Both the position numbers and the translations under genes were made by a program. Under the pieces are notes generated by a model. It saw only the letters and a list, made by a program, of their open reading frames with translations. It was not told the DNA's origin and did no database searches. A stretch of 64,000 bases of DNA, from positions 36,321 through 100,320 of the forward strand of contig ONKF01000017.1 of NCBI GenBank assembly GCA_900318335.1. The letters run 5' to 3'. Positions 7,971-64,000 of this stretch are shown piece by piece (positions within the stretch are counted from its first letter, which is position 1; every line of letters starts with the position of its first letter). The stretch is from an uncultured Prevotellaceae bacterium. Lineage in GTDB: Bacteria; Bacteroidota; Bacteroidia; Bacteroidales; Muribaculaceae.

Positions 7971-8096
7971 CCATTTGAAATTCTTGATGCAATGGTAAAG
8001 TCTGTTAAAATGGATGCTTCAACTTGTTATCAAGCCAATTAATAACATTAAGATATTAACCAATTCATTAACTTCAATTTTTAAAAGCAAGTGCGT

Positions 8097-11000
8097 ATGA
8101 AAAAACAATTAGCACTGTTGGCCGCCCTGGCTATCGCCTGCGGAGCTCCCGCTGGGATGACATCGCTTCCCAGCACGGGTTTCACAGCCAAGGGTACCAA
8201 CCGCGGTACCGCCACCGATGTGGACGGCAAGTATTCAATCAACGCCAATCGAGGTGACGTGCTCATCATTTCCTACGTGGGCAGCAAGCCCATGGAGGTT
8301 ACCGTGGGCAGCAGTGCCATGGACATTGACATGGCAGCCAATGACCAGGTCCTCGATGAGGTTGTTGTAACCGCACTCGGTATCCGCAAGGACAAGAAGT
8401 CGCTGGGTTATGCAGTCGATGACTTGAAGGCCGAGGAACTGATGCGCAACAAGAACACCAACGCCATCAACTCACTTGCCGGTAAGATCGCCGGTGTAAA
8501 CATCACCCAGTCGTCTGGTGCCGCAGGTTCGGGTGCTCAGATCATCCTGCGTGGTGGTACATCACTGGAGCGCGACAACCAGCCGCTGTTTGTTGTGGAT
8601 GGTGTCATCTATGACAACTCCACCTCGATTATCGGTAACTCTGGCTTTGATGGCATGACCGGTGTGGCAACCACCAACTCCAACCGTGTGATGGATATCA
8701 ATCCCGAGGATATCGAGAGCATGAGTGTACTGAAGGGCCCCGCCGCAGCTGCGCTTTACGGCTCAAAGGCTGCCAACGGTGTTGTCATCATCTCCACCAA
8801 GAAGGGTAAAGAAGGCCACGTGGAGGTTAACTTGAACGCTAAGTTCATCACCACCTGGGCAAAATACCTTCCCGAGACCCAAAAGAAATACAAACGTGGT
8901 TATGTATGGCAACACTACAATGAAGATGGTTCTTACAAGGATTTCACCTATGATGACAAGACCTATTCATCGTGGGGAGCTCCCGCCGCTCCTGGCGAGA
9001 CCGTGTATGATAACATCGGTAACTTCTTTGAGAGAGGTAATGCTTGGGACACCAACGTGAGCGTTAGCGGCGGTACCAAGTACAATAACTTCTTCCTGAG
9101 TGGTTCATTCTATGATCAGGACGGTATCATTCCCACCACGGGTTATACCAAAACCACCTTCCGCTTCAATGGTGAGCAACGTTTTGGCCATTTCACCTTT
9201 GGTGCCAATGCCGCCTATAGCCAAGCCCGCACTACAAAGACTCTGACCAGTGCCGCTCTTTACGGTGATAACGGCCAGGGTACGATGTACACAGTGTATA
9301 ACTGGAACCCATTTGAGGACATGAGGAACTATCTCAATGAGGACGGTTCGCGTGCCACCTTGCGTCCTGACTTGATGCCATGGGAAGAGCGCAATAATCC
9401 TTACTGGATTCTGAAGAAGGACCGTCTGACTGATGATACCGAGCGTTTCACCGGCAACTTCAACGTGAAGTGGGACATCTTTGACTGGTGGTGGATCAGC
9501 TACCGCATGGGTGTTGACTCTTACACAACCGAGAACACTAACAAACTCGCTTCTGGTGGTACCCACAAGGAGAACTGGAAGAACGGTATGTACAGTGAGA
9601 ACTCTATGCGTTACCGTTACCTGTCCAACAACCTGATGACCAACTTCAACAAACAGTTCGGTGACTTCAACTTCAACCTGCTGTTAGGTGGTACTACCGA
9701 GTACACCAAGCGCCAAAGGAACTCCCGCATGGCTTGGAACTTCCAGGTACCCGACTTCTTCTCGTTTGACAATGCGCTGAAGGAGGATCGCGATTTCTCA
9801 AATTACAAGAGCCGCAAACGTTTGGCTGGTGTCTTCGGTGAGTTCCGTATTGATTGGCGCAGCGCTCTGTTCTTGACAGTGACTGGCCGCAACGACTGGT
9901 CTTCTACTCTGCCCAAGGAAAACCGCAGCTACTTCTATCCTAGTGTGAGCGGTGCTATTGTGTTCACCGAACTGATGGGTGACTCTCGTCCCGATTGGCT
10001 GACCTTCGGTAAACTCCGTGCCAGCTGGGCTAAGGTAGGTAAGGATACCGATCCTTATGTAACAAACACCTATCTATGGCCCGTGGGCACTTACCTGAAT
10101 GGTATGACCGGTGTGGGTAACACTTGGACCACTGGTAACCCCTTCCTGAAACCTGAGATCACCAAATCGACCGAGGTGGGTATTGAAATGCGCTTCTTCA
10201 ACAACCGCCTGCACTTCGACTATGCTTATTATACCAACAACTCCATCAACCAGATCATGGAGCCTCGTCTGTCTAACTTCATCGGTTACATCCTACGTAA
10301 GGTGAACGCTGGTGACGTTTACAACAAGGGTATGGAGCTCACGATTGGCGGTACACCCATCAAGACTCGTAACTTCACTTGGGAAACCAACCTGATTATG
10401 AGTGGCAACCGCGGTACGGTGAAGAACCTCATCGACGGTGTGGACATCCTCTACGTGACCGACGTACAGGTGGGTAGCGCACGTGCTGCCTCATTCAATG
10501 GCGGTAACTTTATGGCCATCAGCGGTAGCGAATTAGACCGTGACCCCAAAGGCAACCTGATTCTTGATGACAACAACATGCCCACTGGTGGCAAGAACGA
10601 TAAACTGGAAATCGGTAACCGCGAGCCCAAGTTCTCCGGTGGTTGGAACAATACCCTGACCTGGAGGAACTGGACTTTCAACATGTTGTGGGAATTCCGT
10701 GTAGGCGGCCATGTTTACAACGGCACCCTTTACTCGATGGTTACCAATGGTACTGCTGCTTTGACCGAAGGTCGTAACCACCTTTCAATCACTGGTGTTC
10801 ACCAGACTGGAACTCAAGATGTTGTTGGCGAAGATGGCAAAACGACTAAGGTTCCCGTTTACTCAGATCCTACGACTTATGAATTTGAGGCCGGTAAGCT
10901 CTATGACTATAATGGCAAGCAGACTCCGGGTGAGTGGATCATCAACAACTACTACACCGATTATTACTTGAAAGAGAGCACAAACTTCATGAAGAAGGTT

Positions 11001-11801
11001 AACGCACTGCGCCTGCGCACCATTTCGCTCTCTTATGCCCTGCCCAAGTCATTACTGGCACGCACCAAATACATCAAAGCTTGCTCGCTGACCGCTACAG
11101 GTACCAACCTGCTGCTGTTTACCAACTACGATGGTGATCCCGAGGTAGCTGCCGCTGGTGCTGGTTCGATTGGTTCAAGCTCCGTAGGTATCGACTACTG
11201 CGGTGTTCCCTCAACGGCAAGTCTCTCCTTCGGTGTCAACATGACCTTCGGCACTGACTATGAGGCTCCCGCCCGCGTGAACAATGTTGAGCTTGAAAAC
11301 CTGAACGGCCAGATCAACGACCTGCGCAACCAGCTTGCTAACGCTCAGAACGCCAGCAACGCCCGCATTGCCCAGCTCGAGAATGACCTCGCTGCTGCCA
11401 ACAAGGCTCTGGCTAACTGCCGCAATGACCTGAATGCTGCCAAGAATGCCGCTCCCAAGGTGGTTGACAACAGCAAGCAGTACATGAACGTCCTGGTTCA
11501 CTTCCCCGTGAACAAGACCGGTATCACCGCCGACCAGCGTGCCAACGTTGAGCGCGTGGCTGCTTACCTGAAGAGCCATCCCGGAGCAACTTGCGAAATC
11601 AAGGGTTACGCTTCGCCCGAGGGCAACCAGGAGAACAACATCAAGCTCGCTAACGGCCGCGCCGCCAGCGTGAAGGATATGCTCGTTAACAAGTATGGTA
11701 TCGCTGCCAACCGCATCAACGCTGCTGGCCAGGGTATCAGCAACATGTTTGACGAATTGAGTTGGAACCGCGTTTCCATCTGTGAGATCATCGTGAAGTA
11801 A
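8097..11801 (+). CDS. SusC/RagA TonB-dependent transporter with C-terminal coiled coil and OmpA-like domain
   Basis: Outer-membrane active transporter that works with the adjacent SusD lipoprotein; 1234 residues from ATG 8097 (a GTG two codons earlier is less likely). Order of parts: an N-terminal signal-like segment; an incomplete carboxypeptidase-regulatory-like domain (KGTNRGTATDVDGKYSI onward); the plug, starting near LDEVVVTALG and including LRGGTSLERDNQPLFVVDG and NGVVIISTKKG; and the beta-barrel to about residue 1055. After the barrel come a heptad-rich coiled coil (about 1061-1126) and an OmpA-C-like domain (1127-1234) with GYASPEG and a terminal NRVSI. Ordinary SusC proteins end at the last barrel strand. 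The N-terminus is unusually short before the KGT motif. The substrate is unknown and no glycan enzymes are adjacent. Confidence 0.92.
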   Translation: MKKQLALLAALAIACGAPAGMTSLPSTGFTAKGTNRGTATDVDGKYSINANRGDVLIISYVGSKPMEVTVGSSAMDIDMAANDQVLDEVVVTALGIRKDKKSLGYAVDDLKAEELMRNKNTNAINSLAGKIAGVNITQSSGAAGSGAQIILRGGTSLERDNQPLFVVDGVIYDNSTSIIGNSGFDGMTGVATTNSNRVMDINPEDIESMSVLKGPAAAALYGSKAANGVVIISTKKGKEGHVEVNLNAKFITTWAKYLPETQKKYKRGYVWQHYNEDGSYKDFTYDDKTYSSWGAPAAPGETVYDNIGNFFERGNAWDTNVSVSGGTKYNNFFLSGSFYDQDGIIPTTGYTKTTFRFNGEQRFGHFTFGANAAYSQARTTKTLTSAALYGDNGQGTMYTVYNWNPFEDMRNYLNEDGSRATLRPDLMPWEERNNPYWILKKDRLTDDTERFTGNFNVKWDIFDWWWISYRMGVDSYTTENTNKLASGGTHKENWKNGMYSENSMRYRYLSNNLMTNFNKQFGDFNFNLLLGGTTEYTKRQRNSRMAWNFQVPDFFSFDNALKEDRDFSNYKSRKRLAGVFGEFRIDWRSALFLTVTGRNDWSSTLPKENRSYFYPSVSGAIVFTELMGDSRPDWLTFGKLRASWAKVGKDTDPYVTNTYLWPVGTYLNGMTGVGNTWTTGNPFLKPEITKSTEVGIEMRFFNNRLHFDYAYYTNNSINQIMEPRLSNFIGYILRKVNAGDVYNKGMELTIGGTPIKTRNFTWETNLIMSGNRGTVKNLIDGVDILYVTDVQVGSARAASFNGGNFMAISGSELDRDPKGNLILDDNNMPTGGKNDKLEIGNREPKFSGGWNNTLTWRNWTFNMLWEFRVGGHVYNGTLYSMVTNGTAALTEGRNHLSITGVHQTGTQDVVGEDGKTTKVPVYSDPTTYEFEAGKLYDYNGKQTPGEWIINNYYTDYYLKESTNFMKKVNALRLRTISLSYALPKSLLARTKYIKACSLTATGTNLLLFTNYDGDPEVAAAGAGSIGSSSVGIDYCGVPSTASLSFGVNMTFGTDYEAPARVNNVELENLNGQINDLRNQLANAQNASNARIAQLENDLAAANKALANCRNDLNAAKNAAPKVVDNSKQYMNVLVHFPVNKTGITADQRANVERVAAYLKSHPGATCEIKGYASPEGNQENNIKLANGRAASVKDMLVNKYGIAANRINAAGQGISNMFDELSWNRVSICEIIVK
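11277..11798 (+). other. Coiled coil plus OmpA-like peptidoglycan-binding module at the SusC C-terminus
   Basis: Residues 1061-1126 (11277-11474) are Ala/Asn/Leu/Gln-rich heptads such as INDLRNQL and LENDLAAANKALANC, reminiscent of the Lpp alanine zipper. Residues 1127-1234 (11475-11798) resemble the OmpA C-terminal domain: VHFPVN strand, NVERVAAYL helix, EIKGYASPEGN, NGRAASVKDML, NRINAAGQG and a final WNRVSICEI. A near-identical module ends the second SusC of the window. Confidence 0.85.
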
Positions 11802-11897: not shown

Positions 11898-13766
11898 ATG
11901 AAACTATTCAAATCAATTATACTGTGTGGTTTGGCTGCAGTGGCATTGTCGCTCACTTCCTGCAACGATTGGCTTGATGTGAACAATGACCCCAACACGC
12001 CGACCTCGGCCGATGCCAGCTACTCGACCCGCATGACCTTCATGCAGCACTACAGCATCGCTGCCTACATGATCCCATCGTCCAACACTGCATACTATTG
12101 CGGACAGTTGGCTACATATACTGGTGCTCAACAGACGGCGGCTATGAATTGGAACCTGGGTGGCAGCAACCGTGCCAATAATGCCCAGCAATGGTTCCTC
12201 GTTCCCGTGGGTGGTAATCTGCCCGACCTCTACAATAGCGCTATGGAAGACGGTGCTTATCACTATGCTGCTATGGCTTGCTATTTCAAGGCTTTCGGTT
12301 TCATGAATTTGGCTGACCTCTTCGGTGAGGTGCCCTTTGATGAAGCCTTTGGCGATGCAGTGGCTCCCAAGTACAACACTGGTAAGGAAGTGTTCATGGG
12401 TTGCATCAAACTCATTGATCAGGCTATCGAGCTCTTCCAGAGGGAACAGGATCCTAATGCACTCCCCCTTAGCGATGGCGACATGTGGAACGGTGGCGAC
12501 ACTGGCAAATGGATTAAGTTATGCTATTTCCTGAAAGCACGTTGGCTCAACCACTTGAGCAAGAAACAAGCTGGTAGCTATACCGAGGGTAAGTATGACC
12601 AGGCTGCTATTCTGGACTGCCTCTCCAAGGCCATGCAGAGCAATGCAGACAACACTGTTGTTTATCACGAGGACAACAACAGCACCACCCATGACCATGA
12701 GGGATGGGATGAGCCTGTTGACTATTCAGCACTGTATTCGTGCATCGGTATGAACAACAACCGTATGTTCGTTTCCAAGTGCTTTTATGACAACCTGACA
12801 AACTTTGCCGGTAATGGTGTGGAAGACCCCCGTGCCGACAAGTTCATTCCCTGGGCTCGCTCAGTCAAGAGTGACGATACTCCTGACGAAATCAAGTGGA
12901 GTGAAGATGGCAAGTGGCGTCGTTCGCTGGGTGTTGACCTGACTACCAACATCATCAGCAACGGTGGTCCTTTCCCCTCACTGTACAGTGGTAACATCCC
13001 TGGCTGGTATTGTAACACTACAGATAATGCACGTCAAGGCGACACCATCTATGTACAGGGTCAATCTGGCTCAACTGGCTACGGTGGCGGCAAGGATATG
13101 CTCATGCGTAGAACAGCTGGCTATGACGAGTCAGCTATCTCTGGCGTTTTCTGGACACGTCCCACTTCTCCCACAGTGGTTGGTTCTTATGCCGAGGCTT
13201 GTATGATCAAGGCTGAGGTGCTCTTCCGTCAAGGTAAGACCACTGAGGCTTACAACGCCTATCGCGAGGGTATTAAGGCAAACATTGAGTTTGTTAACGA
13301 CATGTGCAAGCGTTGGGTCGCTGATGATCCTACATTGGTTTCCTGCCCCTCCTTCACTCCGATGGAGCAGGCCGATATTGACAACTTCCTGAACAACGGT
13401 ATCGGCACCGCTAGTGACCTTACCATGGGCAAGATTATGACTCAGAAGCAGATCATCGTGTTCTTCACCACCGAGATGTGGCTTGACATGCGCCGCATGG
13501 ACTACAATCCCGAGTACTTCTTGGGATGGCAAAAGCCGTTCATGTATCTGAATACCGCTAGTTACAAAACCTACTGTCCCGACGGCAAATATCCTCGCCG
13601 CTGGAACCAGGCTTCCTACGAGAAAGACTATAACACGACTAATCTCGATGCCATCGGCGATCTAGTGCCTGGTGCACGTGATCTCCCAGTTGGCGAGAAT
13701 GGCAAGTGGTATCTCTCGGATCAGATCTGCACCCTCCCCGTATGGTGGGACAGCGACCAGGAGTAA
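11898..13766 (+). CDS. SusD/RagB family outer-membrane lipoprotein
   Basis: Surface ligand-binding lid of the SusCD pair, 622 residues. The lipoprotein signal ends at LTSC (Cys22), followed by NDWLDVNNDPN, the usual start of the SusD-like_2 (RagB) subgroup. TPR-like helical repeats such as YHYAAMACYFKAFGFMNLADLFGEVPF are visible. The C-terminal part has the usual QKQIIVFFTTEMWLDMRRMDY helix. It lies 96 nt after susC and is surely co-transcribed. A strong terminator follows, so the pair has no further partner gene here. SusD proteins of this branch often bind peptides or unusual glycans, but the ligand here is unknown. Confidence 0.92.
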   Translation: MKLFKSIILCGLAAVALSLTSCNDWLDVNNDPNTPTSADASYSTRMTFMQHYSIAAYMIPSSNTAYYCGQLATYTGAQQTAAMNWNLGGSNRANNAQQWFLVPVGGNLPDLYNSAMEDGAYHYAAMACYFKAFGFMNLADLFGEVPFDEAFGDAVAPKYNTGKEVFMGCIKLIDQAIELFQREQDPNALPLSDGDMWNGGDTGKWIKLCYFLKARWLNHLSKKQAGSYTEGKYDQAAILDCLSKAMQSNADNTVVYHEDNNSTTHDHEGWDEPVDYSALYSCIGMNNNRMFVSKCFYDNLTNFAGNGVEDPRADKFIPWARSVKSDDTPDEIKWSEDGKWRRSLGVDLTTNIISNGGPFPSLYSGNIPGWYCNTTDNARQGDTIYVQGQSGSTGYGGGKDMLMRRTAGYDESAISGVFWTRPTSPTVVGSYAEACMIKAEVLFRQGKTTEAYNAYREGIKANIEFVNDMCKRWVADDPTLVSCPSFTPMEQADIDNFLNNGIGTASDLTMGKIMTQKQIIVFFTTEMWLDMRRMDYNPEYFLGWQKPFMYLNTASYKTYCPDGKYPRRWNQASYEKDYNTTNLDAIGDLVPGARDLPVGENGKWYLSDQICTLPVWWDSDQE

Positions 13767-15762: not shown

Positions 15763-16914
15763 TTACAATTGTTGATTTCGCCACGCATTTGGACTGATTC
15801 CCACCTGCTTTTTGAACGTGCTGGAGAAAGTGGATTGAGACGTGAAACCCACCTCGCTGGCGATTTGCTCAATGGGCATGTTGCGGTCGGCCAGCATGAG
15901 CGATTGGGCCTCCTGGATGCGCATCTGGGCTACCCATTCATAGAAGGTCATCTGCCTGACCTCGTTCAGGTATTTGGACAGATAACTGCGGTTGGTACCT
16001 ATCTCGCGGGCGGCCTGCTCGATGGTGACCCCCTTGGTGCGGTAGCCGCCACGGGCCCGCCAGCGCGCTTCCTTTTCCTGCATCACCTCAATCAGGGAAT
16101 CGCTAAATGAGCTGCGTTGCACATTCATATCACCCTCTTCATCGCCAGCATCATTCATTGCGCTAATCTCCTGTGCGTCACTACCGTCCTCACCATCATT
16201 AAGTGCTGCTGCCAGCGACTTATAGGACGATGAGAAATTGATTATACAGATAAAGGTATAGATAATCATAATGATACCCAGAGCCACCTGATAAACCCCA
16301 ACCCAGCGGGGTAACCAGCAGACAAACGGCGCCGAGAGCAGGAAAACGAGGATACCCGCACCCACGCCCGGCATCCAACGTATCATATTTTCCACCACAT
16401 CAGAATAATAGGTTCTCAGGTTATTGATGGCCTTGCGATAGACGACAACACAGGAATAGATACCACTACACGTGATGATGAACAAAAACACACAGCACAA
16501 CAACAGTCCTCGCACCTGCCACAGCCTATTGGGCAGGAAGTAGTTGATAACCAATATCGTGACAAAGGCAAGAAGCACCACAGCCGCAATGACTTGTTGC
16601 CTCCGGTCAACGGAACCTGGGCTGATCATTGTGCAATAACCCATTGCGAACAATAATGTAGCGAGATAGAAAACCAACAGGTAGACCGATACCGACAGAA
16701 TGGGATCACCCACTTCCAAAACCCGCATCACCCACTGGGACAGGATTTCGACACCGAACAGCAAAAATGCTATGGCACAGGTCAGCTTGCCCTTCTGATA
16801 ATAGATGTGGGACTGGGTTTCGGGCGTCTTGATCACAAGCAAAACCAAACCCAACAGAATGGGGATCACCCACCCTATCAGCACAATGTTGAGTTCTAGT
16901 TCTTGTGAAATCAT
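15763..16914 (-). CDS. Membrane-anchored AraC-family transcriptional regulator
   Basis: A 383-residue protein with about six or seven hydrophobic segments over residues 5-240, then a charged linker and a C-terminal AraC HTH domain (about 285-383). HTH landmarks are the first helix-turn-helix GVTIEQAAREIGTNRSYLSKYL and the second, IEQIASEVGFTSQSTFSSTFKKQVGISPNAWR. This arrangement, an integral-membrane sensor joined to an AraC DNA-binding domain, occurs in Bacteroidetes. It is divergent from a paralogue with the same layout. The signal and target genes are unknown; the neighbouring susCD pair and glycosyltransferase are candidates only by proximity. Confidence 0.88.
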   Translation of the reverse strand: MISQELELNIVLIGWVIPILLGLVLLVIKTPETQSHIYYQKGKLTCAIAFLLFGVEILSQWVMRVLEVGDPILSVSVYLLVFYLATLLFAMGYCTMISPGSVDRRQQVIAAVVLLAFVTILVINYFLPNRLWQVRGLLLCCVFLFIITCSGIYSCVVVYRKAINNLRTYYSDVVENMIRWMPGVGAGILVFLLSAPFVCWLPRWVGVYQVALGIIMIIYTFICIINFSSSYKSLAAALNDGEDGSDAQEISAMNDAGDEEGDMNVQRSSFSDSLIEVMQEKEARWRARGGYRTKGVTIEQAAREIGTNRSYLSKYLNEVRQMTFYEWVAQMRIQEAQSLMLADRNMPIEQIASEVGFTSQSTFSSTFKKQVGISPNAWRNQQL

Positions 16915-17066: not shown

Positions 17067-18158
17067 ATGACTCTATATGAATACTCCCAATTAGGCTGTG
17101 TCGTCGAGACTCTGTTCTGCGGCATCACTCTACTATTTATAGGTAATGTGAAGGCTAAGCTGTCATCCTGGCTCTCATGGGCCAAGTGGGCTGTGGCCAT
17201 CGTACTCGTCATGGTTGGCATTTTCACTCTCGTACAGTATGCGTTAAGCTTAAACGAGAATTATCCCAAAGTGAATACCGCCCTGAACATCTCCATGCTC
17301 TACACGGTAACCTTTATGTTGGCAGTAGCCTTTATCCCGCTGGCCAACAGGATGCACATAACCAATACCCGCATCATCCTCACGGCAATGATATTCTTGT
17401 TGAGCGGGGTGCTGGTGTGGATATCGCCATGGTGTGAACCATCACTGGCAACCATCATGATTGTGTCCTCCCTGGCATTGTATTTCATTGAATTAGTGAG
17501 GATTATCTTCGTTTTTGCCATCAGTTACAAGATGATATCCAGCCGACGCAATGAACTGAATGCCGAGGAAAGCTTCCGCTTCTCCTACCTTAACCTGCTG
17601 TGGCGCTGCGTTTTCTCGCTATCATTGTTTGCCATGCTATATGTGTTCCTTGTCATGTGGTCAGAGCATGCGCTGGCCGTCTATAACTTTGCGACACTGC
17701 TACTGTGGGCTTATGTGTATGTAACGTTTGTCAACCTGATTATCAATTACCGCAGTTCAACATCAAGGGCCGAAACGCAAATAACACATCTATCTGTAAA
17801 CCAAATAGTTACAAGCAACACACGACTAATGGAAAACTTAGGTGCCAAGGTGGACAAATGGGTGGCATCGGGAGCTTATTGCCACAAGGGAGTCACCATG
17901 GCTCAAGTGGCCGAGCAATTAGGCACCAACCGCACCTACCTGTCACGTTACATCAACAGCTACTACGGCTGCAACTTCAATGCCTGGCTCACCCGATTGC
18001 GTATCGACGAGGCTAAGCGGCTGCTGGTCTCCTCCCCCACCCTGTCGATCGAGAAAGTATCGCTCCAATTGGGTTTCACATCCAAATCCCATTTCATGAG
18101 CACATTTAAGGCCCAAGAAGGCCTTACCCCCGGCCAATGGCGTGACCAGCACGCCTAA
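17067..18158 (+). CDS. Membrane-anchored AraC-family transcriptional regulator (divergent paralogue)
   Basis: A 363-residue protein with several hydrophobic helices in residues 10-230 and an AraC HTH domain in the last ~105 residues. HTH landmarks are GVTMAQVAEQLGTNRTYLSRYI and IEKVSLQLGFTSKSHFMSTFKAQEGLTPGQWR. It shares domain order and HTH signature words (GTNR-YLS, GFTS) with the divergent gene at 15763-16914, so the two look like an old duplication. The 152-bp region between them holds one TAATTTTG promoter for each gene and could be a shared autoregulatory site. Confidence 0.87.
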   Translation: MTLYEYSQLGCVVETLFCGITLLFIGNVKAKLSSWLSWAKWAVAIVLVMVGIFTLVQYALSLNENYPKVNTALNISMLYTVTFMLAVAFIPLANRMHITNTRIILTAMIFLLSGVLVWISPWCEPSLATIMIVSSLALYFIELVRIIFVFAISYKMISSRRNELNAEESFRFSYLNLLWRCVFSLSLFAMLYVFLVMWSEHALAVYNFATLLLWAYVYVTFVNLIINYRSSTSRAETQITHLSVNQIVTSNTRLMENLGAKVDKWVASGAYCHKGVTMAQVAEQLGTNRTYLSRYINSYYGCNFNAWLTRLRIDEAKRLLVSSPTLSIEKVSLQLGFTSKSHFMSTFKAQEGLTPGQWRDQHA

Positions 18159-58928: not shown

Positions 58929-60470
58929 TTACTTGTAGTCACCCATGGGGTTCTGGTCCTTAGAGGCATCCATATTAGTATTGCCATCAAACTCAGCCTG
59001 AGGAATAGTCAGTACCCACAGATAGCTTTCAGGATCCTTAGCAGCAGCGGCGTGAGTCGGAATCAGCAGACCATCGGGCCAGCCATAAGCACTCTTACGC
59101 TCGAAGCCCTGGTGCAGACGGCGGATGGTGTAGATGCGGCCATCCTCGCCCCACAGCTCAAGACGACGCTGGATGAGGATTTCCTCAAGCAGTGAGCCAG
59201 TCTCGTCGGTGGTGATAGTAGCAAGTGCATTACCGGTCTTGCTGGTGCTGTAATTAGCGTCACGCACGCTCATCAGTGCCATCAGGTACTCCTTGGCCTG
59301 AGCATCGTTGCCATTGTGGCAAGCGGCCTCGGCAGCATTGAGGTACATCTCCTCGACGCGCATCCAGATGTAGTCACCCATCCAAGTCTGGAGGTCAGAG
59401 AAGTCAAACTTCCTCTGGATATAGCCACCGGTGCTGTAATCGGCATCGCTGGGATCCCACCATGCACGACGGGTGTCGGAAGACCTCATCTTGTTATACA
59501 GCCAAGTAGAAATCTGCTTGGGAGCACTGTTACCATAGGCTCCGTCGGTGCTCATATGAGCAAAGAACGAAGCGTACATACCGGTCTGGTCACCCACGAT
59601 CTGAGCACCCCACATCACGTTACCGGCATCAACACTGTTGGTGCCCATGAACGAGTTGACGGGAATGATTCTCTTGCCGCTGGCCTTGATAGCCTTGTCG
59701 GCAGCATCGAGAGCGTCGGCCCACTTCTCCTCGACGAGGCAGATGCGGGACTTGAGACCCAAAGCAACGGCATAACCCATGTGGCTGGGATGACGCTGAG
59801 CGGGCGACTTGGCCAGCAGCTCAATAGCCTTGTTGATGTCCTTGTCGATCTGCTCATAAACCTGCTTAACAGTCGAGCGGGGCTGACCGGTGGTGCTGGT
59901 CATTGTGGGCTCATTGTAGATGGGCACACAGGGATCATCCTGGAATTTGTAGTTACGTGCAAAGGTCTGTGACAGCATGAAGTAGCTGTAAGCACGGATA
60001 GCGTAGGCCTGACCAATAACATAGCTAACGTCCTCGGTAGAACCAGCCATGGTCTCCTCGGCAGCAATGATATAGTTAGCATTGGCAATCCATGTATAGT
60101 AAGCCATCCACAGGTCATAGCTGCGCCAAGCACCACTGGTGTAGCGGGTCTTTACATTATAAGCAGCGTCAAACCAGAACCAACCAGAACCCTGGGCACC
60201 CATGATGAAGTCGTCACCCATCACTTCGGCCATCAGGTTATAAGCACTGATACCGAAGCACTGGTGGGTGTTACCGGTAGTGGACCAGCCAGCAGTGTAC
60301 ATTGAGCGGTAGATACCGTTCAGGGGGATGAGGGCCTTGGTAGCATCGCTCATGAAGGTTGAACCTGACATGGAGTCGGTGGGCTCGGTCTCCAGCATAT
60401 CGTTACTGCAAGACGAGAGGCACAGCACGCCAAACATCCCAATAAACAAATATTTAAATATCTTTTTCAT
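58929..60470 (-). CDS. SusD/RagB family outer-membrane lipoprotein
   Basis: Surface binding partner of the SusC at 60590-64000; 513 residues. The lipoprotein signal MKKIFKYLFIGMFGVLCLSSC has Cys21. SusD landmarks are the N-terminal LETEPTDSMSGSTFMSDATKALIPLNGIYRSMY, TPR-like helices (GQAYAIRAYSYFMLSQTFARNY) and the C-terminal LEEILIQRRLELWGEDGRIYTIRRL. It is 119 nt downstream of susC in the same operon. It belongs to a different subgroup from the SusD at 11898, so the two systems likely take different ligands. Confidence 0.93.
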   Translation of the reverse strand: MKKIFKYLFIGMFGVLCLSSCSNDMLETEPTDSMSGSTFMSDATKALIPLNGIYRSMYTAGWSTTGNTHQCFGISAYNLMAEVMGDDFIMGAQGSGWFWFDAAYNVKTRYTSGAWRSYDLWMAYYTWIANANYIIAAEETMAGSTEDVSYVIGQAYAIRAYSYFMLSQTFARNYKFQDDPCVPIYNEPTMTSTTGQPRSTVKQVYEQIDKDINKAIELLAKSPAQRHPSHMGYAVALGLKSRICLVEEKWADALDAADKAIKASGKRIIPVNSFMGTNSVDAGNVMWGAQIVGDQTGMYASFFAHMSTDGAYGNSAPKQISTWLYNKMRSSDTRRAWWDPSDADYSTGGYIQRKFDFSDLQTWMGDYIWMRVEEMYLNAAEAACHNGNDAQAKEYLMALMSVRDANYSTSKTGNALATITTDETGSLLEEILIQRRLELWGEDGRIYTIRRLHQGFERKSAYGWPDGLLIPTHAAAAKDPESYLWVLTIPQAEFDGNTNMDASKDQNPMGDYK

Positions 60471-60589: not shown

Positions 60590-63500
60590 TTACTTCACGA
60601 TGATTTCGCAAATCGAAACACGGTTCCAGCTCAATTCGTCAAACATGTTGCTGATACCCTGGCCAGCGGCGTTGATGCGGTTGGCAGCGATACCATACTT
60701 CTTGACGAGCATATCCTTCACGCTGGCGGCACGGCCGTTAGCGAGCTTGATGTTCACATCCTCCTTGCCCTCGGGCGAAGCATAACCCTTGATAACGCAG
60801 GTTGCCTCGGGATGGCTCTTGAGGTAAGCAGCCACGCGCTCAACGTTGGCACGCTGGTCGGCGGTGATAGCGGTACCCGACTTGGGGAAGTGAACCAGGA
60901 TGTTCATGTACTGCTTGCTGTTGTCTACCACCTTGGGAGCAACATTCTTGGCAGCATTCAGGTCGTTGCGGCAGTTGGCCAGGGCGCGGTTAGCGGCGTC
61001 GAGGTCACCCTGCAGCTGAGCCAGACGGCTATTAGCGTCGGCAGCGGCACCCTGAGCGTCAGCGAGCTGAGCGCGCAGGTCATTGATCTGGCTGTTGAGT
61101 GCATTCACGTTAACAGCGGGAGCGGCAGCTGCATAGCTCTTACCGAAGTTCAGCTCGATACCCACGGTGTAGGTGCGGTTGGGGCTGTAGTCATAATCGG
61201 TACCACCACTGAAGTTGTACTGGGGATCCATACCATTGAGGTGAGTGAACAATGCCAGGTTGTCAACCGAACCGAAGATACGGGCACCGGTCATACCCAG
61301 CTTGCCAATCCATGACATGGGCAGTGCATAAGCCAGAGTGATATTCTTGATAGCAAAGTAGCTAGCGTCGATCAGGAAACGGTCGGATTGCAGGATAGTA
61401 CCGGCAATCTCTACACGAGGAACGTCGGTCACGTCACCGGGCTTCTGCCAACGGCGAAGCATGTTCTTGTTCCAAGTCGAGCTCAGATACCACAGATCCA
61501 TATCGCTGTTATAAAGGGCATCATAAACCTTGCCACCCAGCGAGTAGGTAGTCAGTACGCTCAGGGTCAGACCCTTCCAGGTGAAGTCGGTACCCAGTGA
61601 ACCGAAGATGTCGGCCTGGCGGCTACCCTGGTGGTACTTGCAGTTAGCAGCAACTGAGTAATCGTCGGTGATATAATCACTGCCCTCAATCATCTTACCA
61701 TCATCGTCCTTATCATATGCCCAGTACAGTGCTTTACCAGTCGAGGGATCAACACCTGCGCTCTTGGCTATATAATAGGTATAGATGGGCAGACCTTCCT
61801 CAATCACGCGAACACCATAGGTAAGCACGGGAGCTTCCTTGGTCAGCTTGATGACCTTGTTCCTGTTGTGGGTAGCCATTGCGGTAATGTTCCACTCAAA
61901 GTCGGCAGTGCGGACGGGGGTAATGCGAAGCGAAGCCTCGACACCACGGTTGCGCATATCACCGACGTTGTCCATATAGCCGGTGAAACCGGTCGACGGT
62001 GCCATGGGACGGTTCAACAACAGGTCCTTAGTCAGACGGTTGTAGAATTCCACGTTCAACTGCAAGCGGTGGTTGAACAGGATAGCGTCGAAACCGGCAT
62101 TGAAGTTACGGCTCTTCTCCCAAGATACCATCTGGTTCTCGAGCGAAACGATCATTGCACCGAGGTTGGTAGCATTGCTGTAAGACAGGTCATACAGCGA
62201 CTGCCATGCGTAGTAGGTATCGAGCATATCGTTACCCTGCTCACCATAGCTGGCCTTTACTGACAGGTTGTTAACCCAACCCACGTTCTCCATGAACTTC
62301 TCACCAGATACACGCCAGTTAGCACCTACTGACCAGAAGGTACCCTTGTTGTACTTGGGATGGAAGCGTGAAGACTTATCCTGACGCAGCGAACCGCTCA
62401 GGAAGTAGCGGCCACCATAGTTATAATTCACACGACCCAGCCAAGAGTCGATGCGATACTTGTCACTGTAGGAGTCAGCCTCCAGCAGGGTGGTGGCGGG
62501 ACGCAACTCATAGATACCATCCACGAGGTTGGTCTTGCCAGCCAGCAGATAAGCAAACTCAAATGCATACCACTCATGACCAGCCAGCAGACCGATGGTG
62601 TGCTCACCGAAGGTGCGGTCCCAAGTCAACAACTGGTTGAAGGTATAGCTCTGAGTGCGACGGTTATACTTCTCGAGCAGACCACCGGCGTTAGCCTGGT
62701 TACCATGCTGAGAGTTCATGTAACGGGTGTTGTTCTGGTTCAAGTAGTCCAAGCTGAAGTTTACAGCAAACTTGATACCCTGACGCCAGCCGTACTTGGC
62801 CTGGTCACTACCCAGGATGATACCAGTGCGCAGACCGGCAACATCACGCTTGTTGATGGCCTTATCCAGTACCAGCATACCGAGCTGTGAGAAGTCATTC
62901 AACGAACCGGGACGATTGCCATTAGGAGTTGGCTCACCCCAGTCATACAGCACGTTACCATCACCATCATACATGGTCTTGCCGTCGATGTCCTTCAAAT
63001 AAACGGGGAACAACGGGTTGATGAACTGAGCGGTGTACCAGGGGTTGCTGGTCGAAGATCCATCATAGTCACTGAAGTTAGACATGGCGTGAGCCAACGA
63101 AATGTTGATGTTGGCACCCAACCAGTCAGTAATCTGGCTGGTGACGTTGGCACGGCCGGTATAACGCTCATAGTTGGTGGTCTTCAAGATACCATCCTCG
63201 TTCAAGTAACCCAGCGACATCATGTACTGTGCATGATCGCTACCGCCAGTCACCTGCAACTGATGCTCGTGACGGAAGGCATTTTTACGGATTACGCTAT
63301 CATACCAGTCCTCATCCCAAGCGCTCTGGGCGTCGGCACGCACTTGACCGGTTGCGGGATCGATAAGCTTGTCCCAAGTGTAGTTCTTGAAGGGATTGTA
63401 CTGCTCACCACCCAGACGGCCGCTCAGACCATTACGGGCAATAGCCTCGGCATCAGCCCAGCTATTTCCATTGTCAATAGCCTCGTTGCGCAGTGCCTCA

Positions 63501-64000
63501 TACACGAGTTGAACATATTCCTTCTGATTAACGTGGTCGTAGCGCTTGGTGGCACGTGATGACCAACCGAAGGTCGAACGCCACATGATGTTGCTGCGGC
63601 CTTCAACACCCTTCTTGGTGGTAATCATCACAACACCGTTAGCACCACGGGCACCATACAGGGCAGCTGCCGAAGCGTCCTTCAAGACGGTCATTGACTC
63701 AATATCCGAAGGGCTGATCGAGCTCAAGCTACCATCGAAGGGGGCACCATCGACAACATACAGCGGCTGGCTGGAGGCGTTGATAGAACCATAACCACGA
63801 ATCTGGATGCTGGGAGACGAACCGGGCTGACCCGATGCGCTGGTAACCTGCAGACCGGCTACGTTACCCTCGAGGGCCTTGGTAGCATCGGTAACAGGAC
63901 GCAACTCCAGTTTCTTGTTGGTCACAGCCTCGGCCGAACCGGTGTAAGAGGTCTTCTTGGCAGTACCATAGGCAACTACCATCACCTCGTCCAGAGCGGT
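60590..64000 (-). CDS. SusC/RagA TonB-dependent transporter with C-terminal coiled coil and OmpA-like domain, 5' end outside window
   Basis: About 1137 codons are present; the signal peptide and N-terminal domain lie beyond the right edge, and the frame is open to position 64000 (TALDEVMVVAYGTAKK). The plug has IQIRGYGSINASSQPLYVVDGAPFDG and NGVVMITTKKG. The barrel ends near YSPNRTYTVGIELNFGKSYAA. A coiled coil (60917-61114; INDLRAQL, LAQLQGDLDAANRALANC) and an OmpA-like domain (60593-60916; VIKGYASPEG, terminal NRVSICEIIVK) follow. It heads a susC-susD-lipoprotein operon. Confidence 0.93.
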   Translation of the reverse strand, partial: TALDEVMVVAYGTAKKTSYTGSAEAVTNKKLELRPVTDATKALEGNVAGLQVTSASGQPGSSPSIQIRGYGSINASSQPLYVVDGAPFDGSLSSISPSDIESMTVLKDASAAALYGARGANGVVMITTKKGVEGRSNIMWRSTFGWSSRATKRYDHVNQKEYVQLVYEALRNEAIDNGNSWADAEAIARNGLSGRLGGEQYNPFKNYTWDKLIDPATGQVRADAQSAWDEDWYDSVIRKNAFRHEHQLQVTGGSDHAQYMMSLGYLNEDGILKTTNYERYTGRANVTSQITDWLGANINISLAHAMSNFSDYDGSSTSNPWYTAQFINPLFPVYLKDIDGKTMYDGDGNVLYDWGEPTPNGNRPGSLNDFSQLGMLVLDKAINKRDVAGLRTGIILGSDQAKYGWRQGIKFAVNFSLDYLNQNNTRYMNSQHGNQANAGGLLEKYNRRTQSYTFNQLLTWDRTFGEHTIGLLAGHEWYAFEFAYLLAGKTNLVDGIYELRPATTLLEADSYSDKYRIDSWLGRVNYNYGGRYFLSGSLRQDKSSRFHPKYNKGTFWSVGANWRVSGEKFMENVGWVNNLSVKASYGEQGNDMLDTYYAWQSLYDLSYSNATNLGAMIVSLENQMVSWEKSRNFNAGFDAILFNHRLQLNVEFYNRLTKDLLLNRPMAPSTGFTGYMDNVGDMRNRGVEASLRITPVRTADFEWNITAMATHNRNKVIKLTKEAPVLTYGVRVIEEGLPIYTYYIAKSAGVDPSTGKALYWAYDKDDDGKMIEGSDYITDDYSVAANCKYHQGSRQADIFGSLGTDFTWKGLTLSVLTTYSLGGKVYDALYNSDMDLWYLSSTWNKNMLRRWQKPGDVTDVPRVEIAGTILQSDRFLIDASYFAIKNITLAYALPMSWIGKLGMTGARIFGSVDNLALFTHLNGMDPQYNFSGGTDYDYSPNRTYTVGIELNFGKSYAAAAPAVNVNALNSQINDLRAQLADAQGAAADANSRLAQLQGDLDAANRALANCRNDLNAAKNVAPKVVDNSKQYMNILVHFPKSGTAITADQRANVERVAAYLKSHPEATCVIKGYASPEGKEDVNIKLANGRAASVKDMLVKKYGIAANRINAAGQGISNMFDELSWNRVSICEIIVK
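60593..61114 (-). other. Coiled coil plus OmpA-like module of the second SusC
   Basis: The OmpA-like part is 108 residues, the same length as in the first SusC, and differs at about 12 positions by direct alignment. The coiled coil has the same conserved Cys (ALANCRNDLNAAKN) and one short length difference. Codon-level identity is also high, e.g. both encode GGTTATGCTTCGCCCGAGGG-like stretches. Confidence 0.85.

Follow-up and report, generated by a model that had tools for sequence, protein, structure and literature searches.

Why should the gene of an outer-membrane importer continue beyond the last strand of its barrel? The C-terminus of SusC-type barrels faces the periplasm, and in the window, the 64,000-nucleotide stretch of DNA analysed here, the frame of one SusC transporter goes on past this point for about 174 residues (11277-11798, residues 1063-1236 of the product). 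A sequence-only reading had noticed this extension, taken it for an Lpp-like coiled coil followed by an OmpA-like domain, and proposed that it ties the transporter to peptidoglycan. Both the extent of the tail and its OmpA character were borne out.

Fusion A and its surroundings

The open reading frame (8091-11801, plus strand) runs for 1236 codons without interruption, the ATG at 8097 being the likely start, and encodes a SusC/RagA TonB-dependent transporter joined to an OmpA periplasmic module, here called fusion A. The transporter part was matched by TIGR04056 over residues 33-1053 (profile positions 22-981 of 981; 627.2 bits against a cut-off of 368.25) and by the SusC signature TIGR04057 (59.2 bits against a cut-off of 46.2). 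It comprises a TonB-dependent receptor plug domain (8394-8783; PF07715, residues 102-231, E 1.1e-16) and a SusC-type barrel (8784-11249) whose final strand, placed from TIGR04056 and unfused orthologs, extends to Phe1053 in the motif FGVNMTF. Beyond the barrel, a short linker seen in the structure models (11250-11282) leads to a long helix and presumed coiled coil (11283-11447, residues 1065-1119) with a single conserved Cys at 1110, and then to an OmpA-C domain (11484-11798, residues 1132-1236) identified by profile match, model and Foldseek. The landmarks named in the sequence-only reading begin at residues 1172 (GYASPEG), 1188 (NGRAAS) and 1224 (SWNRVSIC), and PF00691 matched residues 1138-1218 with E 5.6e-13 and 49.5 bits against a gathering score of 27.2. 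Fusion A is a complete TIGR04056 SusC whose frame passes the final barrel strand into a helix and an OmpA-C domain. Its cognate SusD-like lipoprotein is encoded at 11898-13766 on the plus strand (PF12771, E 4.4e-32; PF12741).

At the other end of the protein, a CarbopepD_reg-like N-terminal extension (8187-8369, plus strand) is truncated: PF13715 matched above its cut-off, though only from profile position 21, and about 26 residues are absent, in frame, at a junction near 8189/8190. The absent stretch is carried by 18 of the 19 other A-group fusions, and the truncation may be a lesion of the window copy, caused by deletion or by assembly. Extensions of the CarboxypepD_reg type are usual in SusC and were not counted as defining.

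Structure prediction agreed with the domain layout. An AlphaFold2 model of residues 1041-1236, for which 46 aligned tails were the input, had a mean pLDDT of 78 and placed a helix at 1065-1119 (block pLDDT mostly 85-96, 68 at the helix start), followed by a domain with the β-α-β-α-β-β order of OmpA-C. In Foldseek, the best PDB matches of this model were OprF-C (5u1h) and A. baumannii OmpA-C (3td3, 3td4 and 3td5), with E values of 4e-9 to 1e-10 and a probability of 1.00 for 5u1h and 3td3; YfiB-YfiR and TolB-Pal complexes were also among the matches. A model of residues 58-1236, of moderate confidence (mean pLDDT 62.8), had the final barrel strand extending to residue 1053 and the helix beginning 12 residues later. 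By arithmetic, at 1.5 Å per residue, the 55-residue helix measures about 80 Å. Where the sequence-only reading had seen a coiled coil the models gave a helix, one that resembles the coil of the genus's own OmpA.

The fusion is not confined to this gene. PF00691 gave 10 matches in the window's genome (70 contigs, 92.9% complete), three of them in SusC-sized frames and all three of these on the same contig (C61): fusion A, a second fusion in the window (fusion D, 60590-64000, minus strand) and a third upstream of the window. Fused proteins make up three of the 14 SusC proteins above the family cut-off in this genome. Fusion D has lost its 5′ end at the contig end, carries its OmpA domain near 60644-60889, and has its SusD at 58929-60470 (minus strand; PF14322, PF07980).

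The surroundings of the fusions were also compared, the letters denoting barrel groups described below. In the regions read, C and A usually diverge, B comes after A and D is more distant; in two loci (L086 and L088) C and B are present and A is absent between them. On contig C61, fusion C (L071 8250-12173, minus strand) lies about 22 kb from fusion A, and gyrB is just upstream of A. This spacing, set against the divergent neighbours of several relatives, is a rearrangement. Scanned neighbours included SusD genes; a CstA-type protein is encoded in the vicinity of C and an MscS channel in that of D. The A locus is followed by a glycosyltransferase and two AraC-type regulators, the latter back to back (15763-16914, minus strand; 17067-18158, plus strand) and with N-terminal halves that are hydrophobic by eye. 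No glycan-degrading enzymes were found among the 14 neighbours and fusions scanned.

Fused and unfused transporters in related genomes

The fusions belong to uncultured gut bacteria, many of ruminant origin. A scan of named genome contigs gave 73 loci, under titles of uncultured Prevotellaceae, Muribaculaceae, Porphyromonadaceae or Bacteroidales. Fifteen of the 73 titles mention a host (goat, sheep, water buffalo or roe deer), and the RUG series comes from rumen. The 69 distinct fusion sequences fall into five barrel groups: A (20), B (14), C1 (6), C2 (12) and D (17). Of the 69, 68 are uncut frames and one is the truncated copy in the window, other partial fusion frames having been left out.

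Within the genus, the tail had a match in 95 of 101 sampled genomes and at least two matches in 38. At least one frame over 1000 aa was present in 37 of these 38, and in the remaining one (G027) the frame is cut by a contig end, with SusC sequence upstream. By GyrB the 101 genomes split into 33 at ≥95%, 48 at ≤86% and 20 without a qualifying match. Fusions occur in 33/33 genomes of the first set and in 0/48 of the second, where no genome had more than one tail match and the single match was an OmpA-sized frame of 392-447 aa in all 15 frames listed. The remaining five fused genomes are without a qualifying GyrB match, as are two genomes without a fusion: G073 (94% complete), whose OmpA groups with those of the fused group and which is possibly a tail-less member of it, and G032 (57% complete), with a similar OmpA score.

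In a family sample of 247 genomes, 150 matched the tail, and among the matches listed all frames over 600 aa came from this genus. A wider survey used a profile of barrel end plus tail, which would miss any fusion whose OmpA domain is very different, and scored at most six candidates per genome. Matches were obtained in 229 of 393 order genomes and, at a stricter cut-off, in 5 of 395 phylum genomes, the two samples overlapping in part and both including the window's genome. Among the matches listed from these candidates, those that spanned barrel end and tail came from the window's genome, with none in the 392 other Bacteroidales or the 394 other Bacteroidota. The remaining matches listed, which for the order reach about E 6e-19, were OmpA-sized frames or SusC ends, nearly all of which then stop.

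The same transporters also occur without the tail. The A barrel was found in 58 of the 101 genus genomes, fused and near full-length in 23, unfused in 28 outside the fused set, in pieces in six, and in G018; in all 14 of the unfused A copies that were read, GVNLTF is followed by a stop. The D barrel was found in 37 genomes (21 fused, 11 near full-length and unfused outside the fused set, five in pieces) and the C barrel in 73 (31 in the fused set, 40 unfused outside it, and two others, one partial and one a 40% paralog). Frame lengths of the C barrel separate accordingly: 29 of the 31 in the fused set measure 1227-1363 aa, two being cut by contig ends, and the 40 unfused measure 1097-1173 aa. 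Barrels are 83-85% identical between a fused importer and its unfused counterpart in related species. These genomes provide a matched set, one importer with and without the putative wall-anchor module in related species, so that the role of anchoring becomes directly testable. One member of the fused group, G018, is a counterexample at the A locus: with a fused C alongside, its SusC in the A position (C38, 47573-50476; 53% identity) lacks the tail. Elsewhere (L178, genome G071), an A tail ends inside the OmpA domain, shortly past NGRA.

Origin of the tail

A protein tree was built from 18 of the 69 fusions and 21 OmpA sequences from 20 loci. The fusion tails came together in a single clade (99/96). 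Its sister was the OmpA of the fused group, that of G073 included, and tails and group OmpA together (100/99) were nested inside the OmpAs of the genus. In a DNA tree, the 69 fusion tails separated from 11 OmpA copies with support of 100/100. Since the tails form one clade that is sister to the group's OmpA, they point to one capture, and independent acquisition from OmpA by each transporter was ruled out. A single capture, from the OmpA of the ancestor of one group within the genus, gave rise to the tail module, which five SusC barrel lineages now carry; it is under purifying selection, and its history is in part distinct from the barrel's. In this the result goes beyond the sequence-only reading. 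Between groups the barrels are 22-33% identical (52% for C1 against C2) and the tails 66-86%, with 61-65% between tail and OmpA, and median dN/dS in the five groups was 0.12-0.19 for tails and 0.07-0.21 for barrels.

The tails of C1 and C2 were intermixed, and one C2 tail was of the A/B/D kind. Tests of whether the tails of each group form one clade rejected this for C2 (p = 1.35e-5), were marginal for C1 (0.0497) and did not reject it for A, B and D, in a tree whose bootstrap had not converged; shuffling of tails between loci is only partly proven. Fusion A was compared in 60-residue stretches with unfused alleles of the same barrel kind (G049, G026, G086 and G046) and with fused relatives (G095, G015, G088, G084, G029 and G100). 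Residues 1-120 were nearest to the fused relatives (85-98%, against 67-72% for the unfused), residues 241-1080 were nearest to the unfused alleles (70-95%, against 36-82% for the fused, with little difference at 301-360), and from residue 1081 onwards the tail was 87-100% like that of the fused relatives, the unfused alleles having none. In G066, the barrel is 91% like that of fusion A and the tail only 40-88% by stretch, being C-like in identity (63%). Thirty A barrels, 16 of them fused and 14 unfused, gave a tree that required at least two changes of fused state; this state lies on two distant A-barrel lineages with unfused barrels beside each. Taken together, the stretch comparison, G066 and the A-barrel tree indicate that, through changes of barrel, the tail was either retained or gained anew. 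The family shows domain capture followed by the spreading of a C-terminal module among paralogous transporters.

Possible roles of the tail and comparison with known systems

OmpA-C is a wall-binding fold, and a tether of the SusC dimer is accordingly the straightforward reading of the tail. In A. baumannii OmpA, D271 and R286 are critical for diaminopimelate binding, according to PMC6572160. The Arg equivalent to R286 was invariant in the 46 aligned tails, and its pattern was read in 62 of the 69 fusions (seven unread); the Asp equivalent to D271, placed by alignment, is Ser in 68/68 fusions in which the motif was read. With the Arg kept and the Asp replaced, the tail was not filed as a diaminopimelate binder. 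The same Ser was found in 11/11 group-type OmpAs read, and GYAS(P/K)(E/D)G, Ser included, in 12/12 OmpAs from other species of the genus, family and order; a change specific to the fusions was therefore ruled out, and the diaminopimelate contact may differ across the whole lineage. Two other OmpA-domain proteins of the window's genome (L001 and L002) retain the Asp, so the Ser is not forced by wall chemistry. An acidic residue two places past the Ser might substitute for the missing Asp.

The coil carries one Cys in 69/69 tails, at residue 1110 in 52 and one heptad later, at 1117, in 17 of C type. A Cys near the coil end was present in 12/12 OmpAs outside the group and in 0/9 group-type OmpAs (loci L004, L214, L215, L217-L219, L221, L222, L224-L229, L233 and L235-L239). 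To judge from these sequences, Bacteroidales OmpA had the Cys ancestrally; the OmpA of the fused group has lost it and the fusion tails have kept it, and its presence in OmpAs outside the group ruled out a gain in the fusions as a dimer clamp. The Cys suggests packing of the coil in an oligomer; VKOR (PF07884) and DsbB (PF02600) had no match in the window's genome (92.9% complete), so that neither of these two disulfide routes is evident. The OmpA proteins of P. gingivalis are said to be trimeric.

Judged by fold and conservation, the most likely role of the tail would be to tether SusC dimers non-covalently to peptidoglycan, and the fused importers are probably tethered to the cell wall. The helix, at about 80 Å, would span from the outer membrane towards the wall, the OmpA-C domain would bind peptidoglycan non-covalently, and two such anchors would hold each SusC2D2 dimer, dimers of this kind being described in PMC7782687. 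The tether would also brace the barrel against TonB pulling. According to PMC12204202, tol-pal is not identifiable in Bacteroidetes and PorE is a proposed tether; extra tethers would therefore make sense in this phylum, and fused SusC would add links from outer membrane to wall. The tail could serve as a general anchor cassette usable by any SusC, which would explain its indifference to barrel identity. The whole proposal, a SusC importer extended by an entire OmpA periplasmic module that acts as non-covalent wall tether and general anchor cassette, is judged somewhat likelier to be right than wrong. The tether first proposed is supported in part: a SusC with helix and OmpA-C is real, conserved and under selection, with tethering as the most economical account; the diaminopimelate Asp, now Ser, is among the points against it. 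Holding the barrel in place, suggested in the sequence-only reading as a purpose, is uncertain: removal of the peptidoglycan-binding domain did not raise the mobility of E. coli OmpA (PMC3637615), which makes bracing or linking likelier than mere immobilisation. More tentatively, and with a little less than an even chance, the OmpA wall-binding module may serve importers as an exchangeable anchor cassette: after a single capture, recombination would have carried it between distant SusC genes, and it would have been retained through barrel exchange. If so, importers would double as linkers of outer membrane to wall, and TonB would pull against a wall-fixed barrel. These proposals bear on how the outer membrane is fixed to the wall in Bacteroidota and on the counterforce to TonB pull on large SusCD complexes.

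Other explanations of the tail were weighed against a wall tether. The coil might mainly serve to link SusC protomers with one another or with OmpA and so stabilise dimers or mixed clusters, wall binding being secondary or lost; the high-confidence prediction of the helix, the one Cys in every coil and in the coil end of OmpAs outside the group, the dimeric state of SusC complexes (PMC7782687) and the change from Asp to Ser at the diaminopimelate site are all in keeping with such an oligomerisation module. It is nevertheless considered unlikely, given that the Cys was inherited from OmpA rather than gained, that neither VKOR nor DsbB was matched in the genome and that, in the alignment, conservation of OmpA-C equals or exceeds that of the coil. 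The tail might instead bind some other partner in the periplasm, such as TonB, a regulator or the N-terminal extension, and thereby modulate import. In favour of this, OmpA-C folds are also found in partner-binding proteins (YfiB-YfiR and TolB-Pal among the Foldseek matches); the tail, however, is common to barrels only 22-52% alike and with different SusD families, which points to a generic target, the wall for instance, and leaves a specific partner improbable.

A tail of no use to SusC, left behind by stop-codon loss or recombination, would account for the closely similar transporters of other species that lack it, for the unfused SusC at the A position of G018 and for G073 as a possible tail-less member. 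This explanation is disfavoured and is given a very small chance, because purifying selection on the tail is like that on the barrel and because the tail is present in 33/33 group genomes by GyrB, on five barrel lineages, and was retained or re-acquired through barrel exchange. Finally, the record titles all denote MAGs or uncultured organisms, in which a frameshift or misassembly, the outcome that the sequence-only reading had named as fatal to its claim, could produce a spurious fusion. The chance of this is negligible: 69 distinct in-frame fusions come from separately assembled records, among which the same junction recurs, dN/dS is well below 1, unfused orthologs stop at the final strand, and the artefact was ruled out.

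With a wall tether as the preferred reading, the fusions can be set beside systems already described. No description of SusC-OmpA fusions was found in the literature searched, mostly outside subscription journals, and the accessible part of PMC5053529 held nothing on them; this agrees with the sequence-only reading, whose author knew of no such system. Like Bacteroidales OmpAs in general, the OmpA porin encoded in this genome (L004, contig C27, about 439 aa) shares with the tails the coil start LNGQIN.LR and an OmpA-C domain with GYAS and WNRVS. OmpA differs in its own barrel, which is far smaller than that of SusC and no TonB-dependent importer, and in the fused group it is without the coil Cys, unlike the fusion tails. 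The nearest solved barrel relative is BT_2264 of the BT_2263/BT_2264 SusCD of Bacteroides thetaiotaomicron (5fq6-5fq8; E 4.6e-123, query 79-1048), from a locus with an adjacent SusD-like gene as for fusion A; its chain is 984 residues long, aligns up to residue 979 and stops at the barrel without a tail, whereas fusion A goes on. OprF-C and A. baumannii OmpA-C (5u1h, 3td3-3td5) have the fold and the diaminopimelate-site Arg in common with the tail, the A. baumannii site having Asp where the fusion tails have Ser; the barrels of OprF and A. baumannii OmpA are porins. A protein resembling PorE of the type IX secretion system was seen by eye in the window's genome (L002). PorE, a proposed tether of outer membrane to peptidoglycan in Bacteroidetes (PMC12204202), resembles the fusions in that an OmpA-like peptidoglycan-binding domain has been recruited into a multidomain outer-membrane protein; it differs in being a lipoprotein that contains TPR and propeller domains, where the fusions have a transporter barrel. 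Both modules were already known, and it is the combination of SusC with OmpA-C that is new.
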